Below, in pieces: positions 19,789 through 24,200 of a stretch of DNA of 57,251 nucleotides; the stretch's first letter is position 1; each line of letters starts with the position of its first letter. The notes beneath the pieces are model-generated. The model did no database searches. It was not told the DNA's origin and was given only the letters and a program-made list of their open reading frames with translations. Both the position numbers and the translations under genes were made by a program. The stretch is from Sandaracinaceae bacterium (GTDB taxonomy: Bacteria > Myxococcota_A > Polyangia > Polyangiales > Sandaracinaceae), in assembly GCA_040218145.1 (NCBI GenBank), contig JAVJQK010000091.1, positions 1-57,251 of the forward strand, in the 5' to 3' direction.

Positions 19789-20466
19789 TCAGAGCAGCTT
19801 CAACAGCTCTCGCGCCGCCTTCTCGGAGGAGGCCGGGTTCTGGCCGGTGACCAGCTTGCCGTCGACGACCACGTGCTCACCCCAGTCGTCACCCTTCTCG
19901 TAGCGCGCGCCCTTCTCCTTCAGCATGTCTTCCAGGAGGAAAGGCACGACGTCGGTGAGGCCGACCCCCTCCTCCTCGCCGTTGGTGAACCCGGTGACCC
20001 GCCGGCCCGCCACGAGCGGCTTCCCCTCGGGCGTCTCGGTGTGGCGGAAGATGGCGGGCGCGTGGCACACGGCGCCGATGGGCCGGTCGCTCCGCGCGAA
20101 GGTCTCGATGAGACGGCGGCTGTCCTCGCTCTCGGCGAGGTCCCACATCGGGCCGTGCCCGCCCGGATAGAAGACCGCGTCGAAGTCGTCCGGGTCGATC
20201 GCCGAGAGCTCGGTCGTGTTCGCCAGGGCCTCCTGCGCGCCGGCGTCGTCCTCGAGCCGACGCGTCGACTCGGTCTGCGCGTCCTCGGAGTCGCTCTTCG
20301 GGTCGAGCGGCGGCTGGCCGCCCGCGGGCGACGCGAGGGTGACGTCCATCCCCGCGTCGGTCAGCACGTAGTACGGCGCCGCGAACTCCTCGAGCCAGAA
20401 GCCGGTCTTGTCGCCGGTGTCACCCAGCTCGTCGTGGGAGGTGAGGATCATCAGAATCTTGGGCAC
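19789..20466 (-). CDS. DJ-1/PfpI-family protein (Hsp31-like)
   Basis: A 225-residue protein of the class I glutamine amidotransferase-like fold. The nucleophile elbow GAVCHAP gives C134 and H135; the conserved acid is one of E26/E27 in FWLEEFAAPYY; the GGHGPMWDL loop is intact. The TGFWLEE and ASPAGGQPPLDPKS segments mark the Hsp31/glyoxalase III subgroup, which hydrolyses methylglyoxal without glutathione or acts as a deglycase or chaperone. It starts at GTG with a GGAAGG Shine-Dalgarno. The VOC gene 50 nt downstream makes a detoxification pair plausible. Confidence 0.85.
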   Translation of the reverse strand: MPKILMILTSHDELGDTGDKTGFWLEEFAAPYYVLTDAGMDVTLASPAGGQPPLDPKSDSEDAQTESTRRLEDDAGAQEALANTTELSAIDPDDFDAVFYPGGHGPMWDLAESEDSRRLIETFARSDRPIGAVCHAPAIFRHTETPEGKPLVAGRRVTGFTNGEEEGVGLTDVVPFLLEDMLKEKGARYEKGDDWGEHVVVDGKLVTGQNPASSEKAARELLKLL

Positions 20467-20526
20467 GTCGCGTCCTTCCAGCGGCTCGGGTTACCCCGAC
20501 CCCATGAGCGCCGCGCGGAGCCTCAC

Positions 20527-20555
20527 AAGCGCCGTCCCAGGACGCGGCGGCGCTT
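20527..20555 (-). terminator. Hairpin after the Cys-repeat lipoprotein gene
   Basis: Arms AAGCGCCG (20527-20534) and CGGCGCTT (20548-20555) pair, with further pairing CGTCC/GGACG inside. It lies 42 nt downstream of the stop at 20597 on the minus strand. There is no T-tract, so termination is plausible but unproven. Confidence 0.4.
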
Positions 20556-20596
20556 CGAGGCGTGCGCGGCCCCAACGAGGCCGCCGCGACCGCCGC

Positions 20597-23296
20597 TCAG
20601 GGGTTGCCGTAGATGCCGCGGCAGTAGCCCAGCACCTCGCTCGGGAAGCCGGCGGTGAACTGCGAGGGGCCCTCGTGGTGGAAGTACCAGCGGTTGGTGT
20701 GGGGCGAGAACGTGATCGAGCACATGTCGCTCAGATCGGTGAACGGCCAGCGGTTCAGGACCGCGCCGCTCGGCACCTCGTAGCGGACGATGTCGCTGCG
20801 ATCGACGGCGATCATCGTGTCGCGCCCGCCGAAGAACTCCGTGATCCCCCAGTACGCCCAGGTCTCGCAAGCCTGGTGCGGCGGCGACGCCATGGCGCCG
20901 AGGTCGGTGACGGTGCCCCCGGGCAGCTCGATGCGCCACGCGTTCGCGCCGTCGTGCAGCAGGATGCGGTTCCACCCGCTGAACACGCCGACGTCGAAGG
21001 AGGGGAGCGTGATGGGCGCCGAGAGAGGCACCTCGCGCGCGGTCTGGAGGCCCGTGGCCGGGTCGAGCTCGATGAGGCGCGTCACGGTGCCGCCGAACGC
21101 GCCGATCGGGCCGCTCGGGGTGCCCATCACGTAGGCGATCCCGGTGCGGATGTCGCTGACGAGCCCCTCGTGCTGGATGCCGACGCCGCCCGAGCCGACG
21201 CCGCCCGTCAGGTCGAGCGCCCAGCGCCCGAGCCCCGAGTCCCCGGCCACGTAGACATGGCTGGACGAGACGGCCACGCCGCCGCGATCGTCGCCGGTCA
21301 AGGCCTCGTGATCGATCGCGCTGCACCCCGCGCGGCTCATCGAGGTGACCACGAATCGACCCCCGGTTGTGTCGTAGGTGGCCGGGCAGTAGCCGACGGT
21401 CTCGTTCGAGATGGAGATGAACTCGGACGTGGACTCGTGGTGGAAGTAGAAGCGGCCGTTGGCGAGGCTCGGCGCGAAGGAGCAGAGGTCCGAGAGATCC
21501 GCGTAGGACGCGACGGTGGCGACCACGCCTGTGGGCACCGTGACGCGCTGGAAGGTCGCGCGGTCCGCGTAGACCAGCCGCGTGGTCGGTCCGTCGGTCT
21601 CCGCGATGCCCCAGAACGCCCAGCTCTCGCACGTGGTGTGCGGGGGCATGGTCATCGCCCCGAGGTTCGTGACCGCGCCGGAGGGGAGGGCGACGCTCTG
21701 CACCGCGGACCCGTCGTAGATCACGATCCGGTCGTAGCCGCTGAAGAACCCGAGATCGAAGCCGGCGAGGTGGATGGGCGTCGACAGCGTCACGATCCCG
21801 CTCGAGGCGGCGGTGCCGTCGGCGTTCATGGGGATCAGCCGCGTGACCTGGCCGCCGGAGTAGGCCTGCTTGGGCCCGGCGCCGTCGGCGAGCAGATAGA
21901 CCGTTCCGTCGCGCGCGTTGCTCACCATCGCGTCGCGCCCGGCCCCGTCGAGGGTGGCCGAGGGCCGGAGCGCCGTGCCCGCCGTCAGGTCGAGGGCGTA
22001 GCGCGTCGTCGCGTCGTCTCCGGTGTAGAGCACCACCTGGTCGCTGACCGCGATGCCGCCGTGGTCGTCTCCGCTGAACAGATCGTGGTCCACCGTCACG
22101 CACGCGTTGGCGGTGAAGCTCGTGATCTGGAAGGTGGGGTTCGGAGACAGGCCCACGCACCGACCGGCCGTGCACACGTTGGAGGCGCAGTCGGCGTTCG
22201 TGGCGCACAGGAAGCCGGGCCCGCACGCCAGGCAGACCGAGCCGCCGCAGTCGACGTCCGACTCGTCCTGGTTCAGCAGGCCGTCGATGCAGCTGACGCA
22301 GGTGCCGCTGGCCGATGAGCACGAGCCCATGTCGCAGTCGCGATCCATCGCGCACGCCGCGCCCGCGCGGCAGCCGCCGCAGATGGCGCCGCCGCAGTCG
22401 ACGTCGGTCTCGTCCTGGTTCTGCACGCGGTCGTCGCACGACTCGCAGATCCCCGCGTTGCAGGAGCCGACGAGGCAGTCCGAGTCCATCAGGCACCGCT
22501 CGCCCGCCGGGCACGCGTCGCACAGGGCGCCCCCGCAGTCGACGTCCGTCTCCTCCGCGTTCTGCACGCGGTCGCTGCAAGACACGCAGCCCCCGTCGAA
22601 GCAGCGCTCGTTCTCGCAGTCCTGATCGATGCCGCACGAGAGCCCGTCCCGGCAGCCAGGGCAGACGGCGCCGCCGCAGTCGACCGACGTCTCGTCCTGG
22701 TTCTGCACCCCGTCGTTGCAGGCGGGCTCGGTGCACATCGACGCCGCGCAGATCAGGCTCACGCAGTCCGTCCGGTCGAGGCAGCGCTGGCCCCCGGAGC
22801 AGGCCGGGCAGAGATCGCCGCCGCAGTCGATGTCGGTCTCCGCGCCGTTGCGCGTGCCGTCCTCGCAGCTCGACGTCGAGCACGTGCCGCCGCGGCAGCG
22901 CCCGCTGAGACACTCGGCGTTCGCCGTGCACGGCTGGCCGCCGGGGCAGAGCCCGCAGTCGCCGCCGCAGTCGGTCCCGGTCTCGTCCCCGTTGGAGACG
23001 CCGTCGGAGCAGCTCGGCACCAGGCAGAAGCCGCGGCCGCAGACCCCGGACGCGCAGTCCTCGGGGCCGTTGCAGGTGGAGCCGTCCGCGCACGGAGGAC
23101 AGGAGCCGCCGCAGTCGACGCCGGACTCGTCTCCGTTGGGCACGCCGTCGGAGCAGGTCGCGCCTGGGCCGGTGTCCGCTGGGAGCGTCGAGCCGTCGCT
23201 TCCACCCGCGTCGGCGGGGATCGGCATCGACATCTGGTCGCACGCGGCGAGGGAGAGACAACAGAACGCGAAGAGCCCGAGATGGATCACACGCAC
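20597..23296 (-). CDS. Lipoprotein with seven Cys-rich repeats and a duplicated C-terminal domain
   Basis: An 899-residue protein. GTG at 23296 is the best start: GGAGG lies 8 nt upstream, and it gives the signal peptide [22 protein letters not shown] at 23314 would add six residues. Residues about 45-370 hold seven copies of a roughly 45-residue unit of form C-DGV-NGDET-DCGG-C-C...G-C....DC...C, each with about eight cysteines. Two homologous domains of about 260 residues follow, each with a GDD-GG-AVS start, an F-SG-(Y/W)-RI segment, a CE(S/T)WA(F/Y)WGI block and a closing FYFHHE or WYFHHE block. It is probably surface-anchored; the function is unknown. Confidence 0.85.
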
Positions 23297-23531
23297 GTTT
23301 GACGCCTCCGGCAATAGCCTTGTCGGTCGAAGGCTCCTCTCTAGCCCGAGTCGAGCCGGCGTACCAGTGGCCTTCGCCTGCGCGGTGGCCCTGGCTCAGG
23401 GCGGCACAGAGGCGTTCCTTCACGCTGTCATCCGGGGTTCGCAGGGGCGCGTGTCGAGTGGCGACCGGCGCTCGCCGCGAGGTCGCGGCACGGCCCGTGC
23501 GTAGCCCGGCGACGCGACCGGGCGTCCGGTC

Positions 23532-23546
23532 CGAGGAGGTCCCTTG
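23532..23546 (+). promoter_or_regulatory. Shine-Dalgarno deciding a TTG start
   Basis: CGAGGAGGT at 23532-23540 lies just before TTG 23544-23546. No ATG or GTG in this frame would keep the signal peptide that follows, so TTG is the best start for the outer-membrane lipoprotein. Confidence 0.6.
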
Positions 23547-24200
23547 TCCCGCACTCTCGCCTCGCGCGCCTGGCTCGGTCTGATCGCGGCCCTCGCCGGG
23601 GGCTGCGTCCCGATCGCGCTGCCGCCGTCGAAGGTCTCCATCACCGGCGGCGGCGCCGCCCAGACGCTCGAGCAGCCCGATCCCACGGCGGGATCCACGC
23701 AGGCGTCCTCCGCGGTCACCTTCCGCGCCGAGGTGGACCCGCTGCAGTTCTGGGATCCGCCGACCCGACCGATCGACGTCGGGGTGGGGCTGGTCCTCTC
23801 CGACTTCCCGGACGCGGAGAGAGCGGATGAAGCCCGGCTCGGCCCGAGCGTCGGCGCAGTCGCGCACTTGTGGGCAGAGCGACTCGGCGACGACGGGATC
23901 GCGCGCCTCTCGGTGGGCGGCAACCTCGACCTGCTCGCCTCGCTCGCCTCGGGCCTCGACGGGTTCGGCGTGGCCGGCGTGTTCGAGGCGGAGATCGGCA
24001 CCATGCCTCGCTCCGACTTCGGCGCGAGCGGCGATGAGGACGGCGTGTTCGTCGGCGGCGCGATCGGGTCGCTCACCGTCGCGCTCCGCGTGGAGGCGGC
24101 CTACCAGTACCTCGACGACGGCACCCACCGCTTCTTGCTCACGGCGGGCCTGCGCTTCCGCCTGCCGGCCATGCTCGGCGTGTTCATCTTCACCGAGTGA
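23544..24200 (+). CDS. Probable outer-membrane lipoprotein (beta-barrel-like)
   Basis: A 218-residue protein, TTG start, with signal peptide MSRTLASRAWLGLIAALAGGC and lipobox AGGC. After a short polar linker, alternating beta-like stretches (IDVGVGLVLSDF, ARLSVGGNLDLLASLASG, GVAGVFEAEIGTM, VFVGGAIGSLTVALRVEAAYQYL) end in LPAMLGVFIFTE. This resembles outer-membrane beta-structured proteins, although the C-terminal residue is not aromatic. No family is recognised. A hairpin follows between it and the convergent thiolase gene. Confidence 0.72.
   Translation: MSRTLASRAWLGLIAALAGGCVPIALPPSKVSITGGGAAQTLEQPDPTAGSTQASSAVTFRAEVDPLQFWDPPTRPIDVGVGLVLSDFPDAERADEARLGPSVGAVAHLWAERLGDDGIARLSVGGNLDLLASLASGLDGFGVAGVFEAEIGTMPRSDFGASGDEDGVFVGGAIGSLTVALRVEAAYQYLDDGTHRFLLTAGLRFRLPAMLGVFIFTE

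Follow-up and report, generated by a model that had tools for sequence, protein, structure and literature searches.

Olfactomedin domains are extracellular five-bladed propellers of about 250 residues. According to PMC4488277 they have 21 strands, and the last blade takes in the N-terminal strands E-1 and E-2 together with the C-terminal strand E-21; PMC4488277 and PMC6719662 place an N-to-C disulfide and a central calcium in some members only. TraA of Myxococcus is described in PMC6372800 as a surface receptor whose cysteine-rich repeats are proposed to form a stalk displaying the recognition domain, which makes it the myxobacterial precedent for a head carried in this way. Here we analysed one gene of a Sandaracinaceae bacterium, lying in a stretch of 57,251 nucleotides (contig JAVJQK010000091.1) that we call the window. 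Its product resembles TraA in outline and differs in arrangement: TraA has an N-terminal head related to PA14 and a MYXO-CTERM end, whereas the window protein has a presumed N-terminal lipid anchor and predicted propeller heads at the C-terminus. We consider it probable that this is a surface lipoprotein in which two tandem propeller heads are displayed on a disulfide-rich stalk for binding.

Layout of the window protein

The frame at 20597-23296 (- strand) is open and encodes 899 amino acids plus a stop. It starts with a GTG at 23296, with GGAGG at 23309-23305, 8 nt upstream; a TTG at 23314, six codons upstream of the GTG, is an alternative start. The following features were located, with the basis of each in brackets.

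23305..23309, - strand: probable ribosome-binding site GGAGG (read in the sequence, 8 nt before the GTG)
23243..23296, - strand: signal peptide, residues 1-18, with the lipobox LAA-C at its end (sequence reading, lipobox rule)
23240..23242, - strand: Cys19, presumed lipidated (sequence reading)
22157..23155, - strand: stalk of seven eight-cysteine units, residues 48-380 (cysteine pattern and same-genome stalks)
21365..22135, - strand: propeller domain D1, residues 388-644 (self-alignment, model, relatives)
20600..21364, - strand: propeller domain D2, residues 645-899, the protein's C-terminus (self-alignment, tandem model, relatives)
21434..21451, - strand: FYFHHE of D1, residues 616-621, in the second strand of the last blade (sequence, D1 model)
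20672..20689, - strand: WYFHHE of D2, residues 870-875 (sequence, tandem model)

The initial annotation described a lipoprotein with seven eight-cysteine units and a duplicated C-terminal domain, and this layout was borne out. By the lipobox rule for lipoprotein signal peptides, the N-terminus, read by eye, is that of a bacterial lipoprotein (LSLAAC, residues 14-19). The residue after the presumed lipidated Cys19 is Asp, which in enterobacteria favours the inner membrane. Each of the seven units has exactly eight cysteines. D1 (257 residues) and D2 (255 residues) were identical at 103 of 254 columns in blastp (41%, E 5e-66); their Smith-Waterman score was 506, whereas 500 shuffles reached 61 at most, confirming the internal duplication. 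The four blocks named as shared (GDD-GG-AVS, F-SG-RI, CE-WA-WGI, YFHHE) all occur in both domains and in order, the last within the FYFHHE and WYFHHE motifs listed above.

Two long open frames in other phases, 20523-24128 (-) and 20408-22318 (+), overlap the gene, as is usual at high G+C. Nine neighbouring frames were compared with Pfam; four matched (DJ-1/PfpI, glyoxalase, thiolase, and 3-hydroxyacyl-CoA dehydrogenase with enoyl-CoA hydratase), five did not, and none gave a lead.

The stalk recurs in the same genome with other C-termini. Five further proteins (L124-L128) have stalks 59-65% identical to this one and no propeller. Their C-terminal parts differ by eye, two of them having an inserted stretch in common, and gave no Pfam family over the cut-off. 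When the whole protein was searched against its own genome by tblastn, only the gene itself matched beyond residue 381, and a D1 search of that genome found D1 and D2 only. The five proteins seem to be a paralogue family swapping heads, in which this myxobacterium would have kept one stalk and changed its cargo. The genome also encodes a longer protein of DCGG units (L130:6292-9051, - strand) in which residues 716-755 partially match Fibrinogen_C (E 4e-6, over the cut-off); it also has sub-threshold DUF4215 units.

Sequence-family searches

The absence of a named family, claimed from the sequence alone, held in all three family libraries. In Pfam the whole window protein matched nothing at E up to 1, STIG1-like PF04885 included, and in NCBIfam nothing over the cut-off. 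Twenty domains searched singly gave isolated Pfam names only, the best being DUF4394 (PF14339) at E 0.088 in one of the 20, short of its curated cut-off; the best E values were 0.077 in PHROGs and 0.0007 in NCBIfam, the latter below the cut-off. Neither the window protein nor 20 relatives matched olfactomedin PF02191 at E up to 1, and none of them matched the SdiA-regulated profile PF06977. Several candidates were rejected as chance: the sortase signal TIGR03065 (E 0.0007-0.002; below the cut-off, internal and in one of 20 members), S-layer proteins in profile searches of PDB sequences (E 0.008-0.09 and 0.002-0.06; confined to positions 3-115 of a profile of 249-250 positions), and kinesin and other PDB sequences near E 1.

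In genome searches, one genome out of 38 had DUF4394, and six out of 57, including that of the window, had PF06977. The own-genome PF06977 match is partial (L120, C41:104364-104732, E 2e-6) and belongs to the family of the best structural neighbour described below. The olfactomedin family had no match in 57 genomes, a result that is uninformative because the controls gave nothing either. For the terms searched in the open-access literature, none of the titles and abstract beginnings listed describes the domain family.

A predicted beta-propeller fold

The initial annotation gave the fold as unknown. Structure prediction gives a confident beta-propeller: the AlphaFold2 model of D1, built on an alignment of 103 rows (D1, D2 and 101 domains from other loci), is all-beta with 21 strands (pLDDT 94.8, pTM 0.93), and its structural neighbours are propellers. 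Twenty of the 21 strands can be arranged as five sets of four when the N-terminal strand 2-7 is assigned to the last blade, leaving out the short strand 13-16. From this grouping the predicted propeller probably has five blades, with the reservation that NHL domains, which are six-bladed, score about as high as olfactomedin. Blade repeats were not significant in a self-comparison of the profile, where the best off-diagonal match (129-162 against 179-212) had a probability of 3.7%. In a tandem model D2 showed the same strand order (20 strands, pLDDT 87.6); its pTM was 0.57 and the mutual orientation of the two heads is not fixed.

The best neighbour in VIA-align was YjiK of the SdiA-regulated family (3qqz, Z 13.4, 213 residues aligned, 4.0 A), a likeness in structure that stops at 10% identity and lacks a Pfam match. 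Olfactomedin (4d77, Z 11.6, 207 aligned, 3.6 A, spanning residues 1-255), NHL domains (Z 11.5) and glutaminyl cyclase (3mbr, Z 11.5, 204 aligned, 4.2 A) were tied near 11.5. In Foldseek, all 50 PDB matches listed had TM-scores below 0.5; most of these, like most of those listed by VIA-align, we take to be proteins with propeller domains. Propeller-like proteins appeared again among viral models, at TM 0.52 at most in the 50 matches listed. Absence from the aligner's list excludes no unlisted family, five-bladed glycosidases for example. The initial annotation had set its reading against a confident match to a known propeller or adhesion domain: at the level of fold there is such a match, and at the level of the sequence family there is none. 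The domain is a propeller fold without a solved relative close enough to lend it a family name.

Olfactomedin nevertheless appears to be the best functional parallel, being extracellular, with closing strands and an optional N-to-C bond and calcium. Compared with the description in PMC4488277, D1 would share the size and the five-bladed form, the blades here coming from strand grouping, and strands 2-7, 13-16 and 245-255 would be the counterparts of E-1, E-2 and E-21. Correspondence of conserved residues lies outside the likeness, and the window domain is bacterial. Common descent with olfactomedin, which would make the domain a genuine bacterial member of that family, is highly improbable: the structural match is full-length, N- and C-terminal strands close the last blade and the putative N-to-C disulfide is missing in some lineages, but the PF02191 searches were negative, structural alignments have 4-12% identity, and YjiK scores higher with NHL domains and glutaminyl cyclase equal.

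Cysteines and conserved acids

Cysteines at D1 positions 12, 169, 218 and 250 were counted in the 103 rows: all four were present in 57 and none in 38, with only 12 and 250 in 3, only 250 in 3, and only 169 and 218 in 2. In 28 rows not selected by motif, all four were present in 19 and only 12 and 250 in 9. Because these cysteines co-occur, we infer a Cys12-Cys250 bond and a second bond, Cys169-Cys218; the second would be unlike olfactomedin.

Motifs at positions 170-179 and 230-239 served as search patterns, which biases conservation there in the 103-row set, so conservation is quoted from the 28-row set (window D1 and D2 included, two fragments of fewer than 200 residues and duplicate copies dropped). 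E179, R197 and R228 were conserved in 28/28 domains, E245 in 27/28, D23, D216 and E234 in 26/28, D68 and E170 in 25/28, and D24 in 22/28. The proposal of a metal or ligand site at FHHE was weakened: its first His is kept in 18 of the 28 domains, its second in 14 and its Glu in 26, and since both histidines vary it is a poor candidate for a metal site. Apart from that one conserved Glu, the motif amounts mainly to a strand. A better candidate for a site is the group of conserved acids that lie at the inner strand, or shortly ahead of it, in four blades and that, judging from the strand positions in the model, would face the channel.

Five-bladed glycosidases and propeller-type glutaminyl cyclases are propeller enzymes with catalytic acids, and the acids conserved here could be catalytic in the same way. 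The near-invariance of several of them in the 28 domains fits an enzyme, as does the presence of glutaminyl cyclases among the best structural neighbours. We nevertheless rate this reading as quite unlikely, given that the Pfam names found among 20 members are at chance level, that one relative (L085) already has a protease domain, and that as many as eight copies share a single frame of 3759 residues, which would suit binding better than catalysis.

Architectures of relatives

Single-domain relatives, whose existence the initial annotation had left to be checked, exist and are common, and tandem and array forms occur too. Twenty relatives were scanned for partner domains, and all except L092 had at least one Pfam match over the cut-off. 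Partners include Ig, Calx-beta, cadherin-like, PKD, CUB, DUF11, Reelin subrepeat, subtilase, RTX and T9SS sorting-tail domains; 19 of the 20 carry at least one partner of a type that we take to be typical for extracellular proteins. Five of the 20 are myxobacterial or deltaproteobacterial. Three of these (L040, L052, L065) have cysteine-rich regions matching STIG1-like PF04885, a profile to which the window protein itself has no match, and the other two (L076, L114) have PKD domains instead.

With groups taken from record titles and three frames with fewer than 100 residues left set aside, the part outside the propeller was at least 5% Cys in 39 of 46 myxobacterial or deltaproteobacterial frames (the other seven lacking a Cys-rich remainder) versus none of 30 others. 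Adjacent propellers in the former group are 3-4 residues apart in 11 of 13 pairs, the other two being spaced by 10 and 12. In other records the spacing is 93-97 residues in 14 of 18 pairs, some of these 14 counted twice because L094 and L100 overlap on one contig, and 209-529 in four; one gap in these other records (L046) contains an Ig domain by Pfam. L100 and L094 lie on the verrucomicrobial contig JAUIGV010000027.1, where eight propellers recur in the frame of 3759 residues with a regular period of about 344 residues. A lipobox pattern run over the relatives (38/67) was set aside as noisy, with matches inside cysteine units.

The domain occurs on very different surface proteins in several other phyla and probably acts as an interchangeable binding head. 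It could instead be a structural cap or spacer with no ligand, its conservation serving folding and its acids pairing with R197 and R228 in salt bridges. The joint near-invariance of two Arg and several acids would fit this, and the arrays in a verrucomicrobial protein, with their regular gaps of 93-94 residues, resemble rod building. Among 68 frames closed at the 3' end, however, 35 have the domain as the very C-terminus (tail of at most 15 residues), as expected for a head, and we think a cap or spacer unlikely.

Proposed mode of action

The most likely function, in our reading, is that of a binding head displayed on a stalk. The N-terminal lipid would anchor the protein in a membrane, presumably the outer one, and the seven eight-cysteine units, from their pattern and the analogy with TraA, may form a stiff spacer. 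At the free end would stand the two propellers, predicted in fold and probably five-bladed, joined by a four-residue linker. In each, N-terminal strands would complete the last blade and close the propeller; most myxobacterial copies would have the putative Cys12-Cys250 bond as a further closure, alongside the putative second bond. In the model, D23/D24, D68, E170 and D216 lie at the innermost strand, or immediately ahead of it, in four of the five blades. Together with E179, R197, R228, E234 and E245 they probably line one mouth of the channel and may hold an ion or ligand there, so that the propellers would act in binding or recognition and not as enzymes. Should the heads bind surface ligands, lipoproteins of this kind would be candidate myxobacterial adhesion or recognition molecules other than TraA.

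Spread among genomes

Of 38 genomes of relatives searched with D1, 6 have the domain; of 377 genomes from the phylum searched with the 103-row profile, 10 have it. Both counts include the window's own genome. Seven candidates were scored per genome in the profile search, making its copies per genome lower bounds. Genomes bearing the domain had one to nine matches, fragments included. In a pattern search of species genomes, 134 stretches matched and 95 encode a relative; the best 80 of these 95, representing 78 loci, were kept. The same kind of search in viral contigs gave 88 pattern stretches and no relatives. Record titles name Myxococcota, other deltaproteobacteria, Verrucomicrobiota, Planctomycetota and Bacteroidota, with one record each from a cyanobacterium (Mojavia pulchra), Anaerolineae, Hydrogenedens and an unspecified proteobacterium. 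A fold and a phylogenetic spread are now assigned to a surface domain that lies outside three family libraries.

Tentatively, and with rather more doubt than confidence, these domains could be seen as an uncatalogued family of bacterial propeller recognition heads, olfactomedin-like in action and passed between phyla. Each lineage would supply its own stalk (cysteine units in myxobacteria, Ig or cadherin-like domains in Verrucomicrobiota and Planctomycetota, T9SS-sorted proteins in Bacteroidota), and an ion-dependent acidic binding centre would be shared.

Window D1 clusters in the tree with the D1 of a Sandaracinus MAG (97/90), as window D2 does with the D2 of that MAG (98/96). Because each domain groups with its counterpart, the D1/D2 duplication is older than the split between the window and the Sandaracinus MAG. 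A record titled Sandaracinaceae MED-G138 (L038) carries a D1 identical to that of the window.

A few record labels look doubtful. Propeller loci L063, L071 and L085 come from MAG records that bear the name Klebsiella pneumoniae or Akkermansia muciniphila, and the Klebsiella label of L063 is probably wrong, because its copy groups with a Limisphaerales copy (100/99). L114, from a Myxococcota MAG, and L115, from a Hydrogenedens record, are similar in length and domain order and group together in the tree (100/100), a likeness that may reflect transfer or a mislabelled bin.
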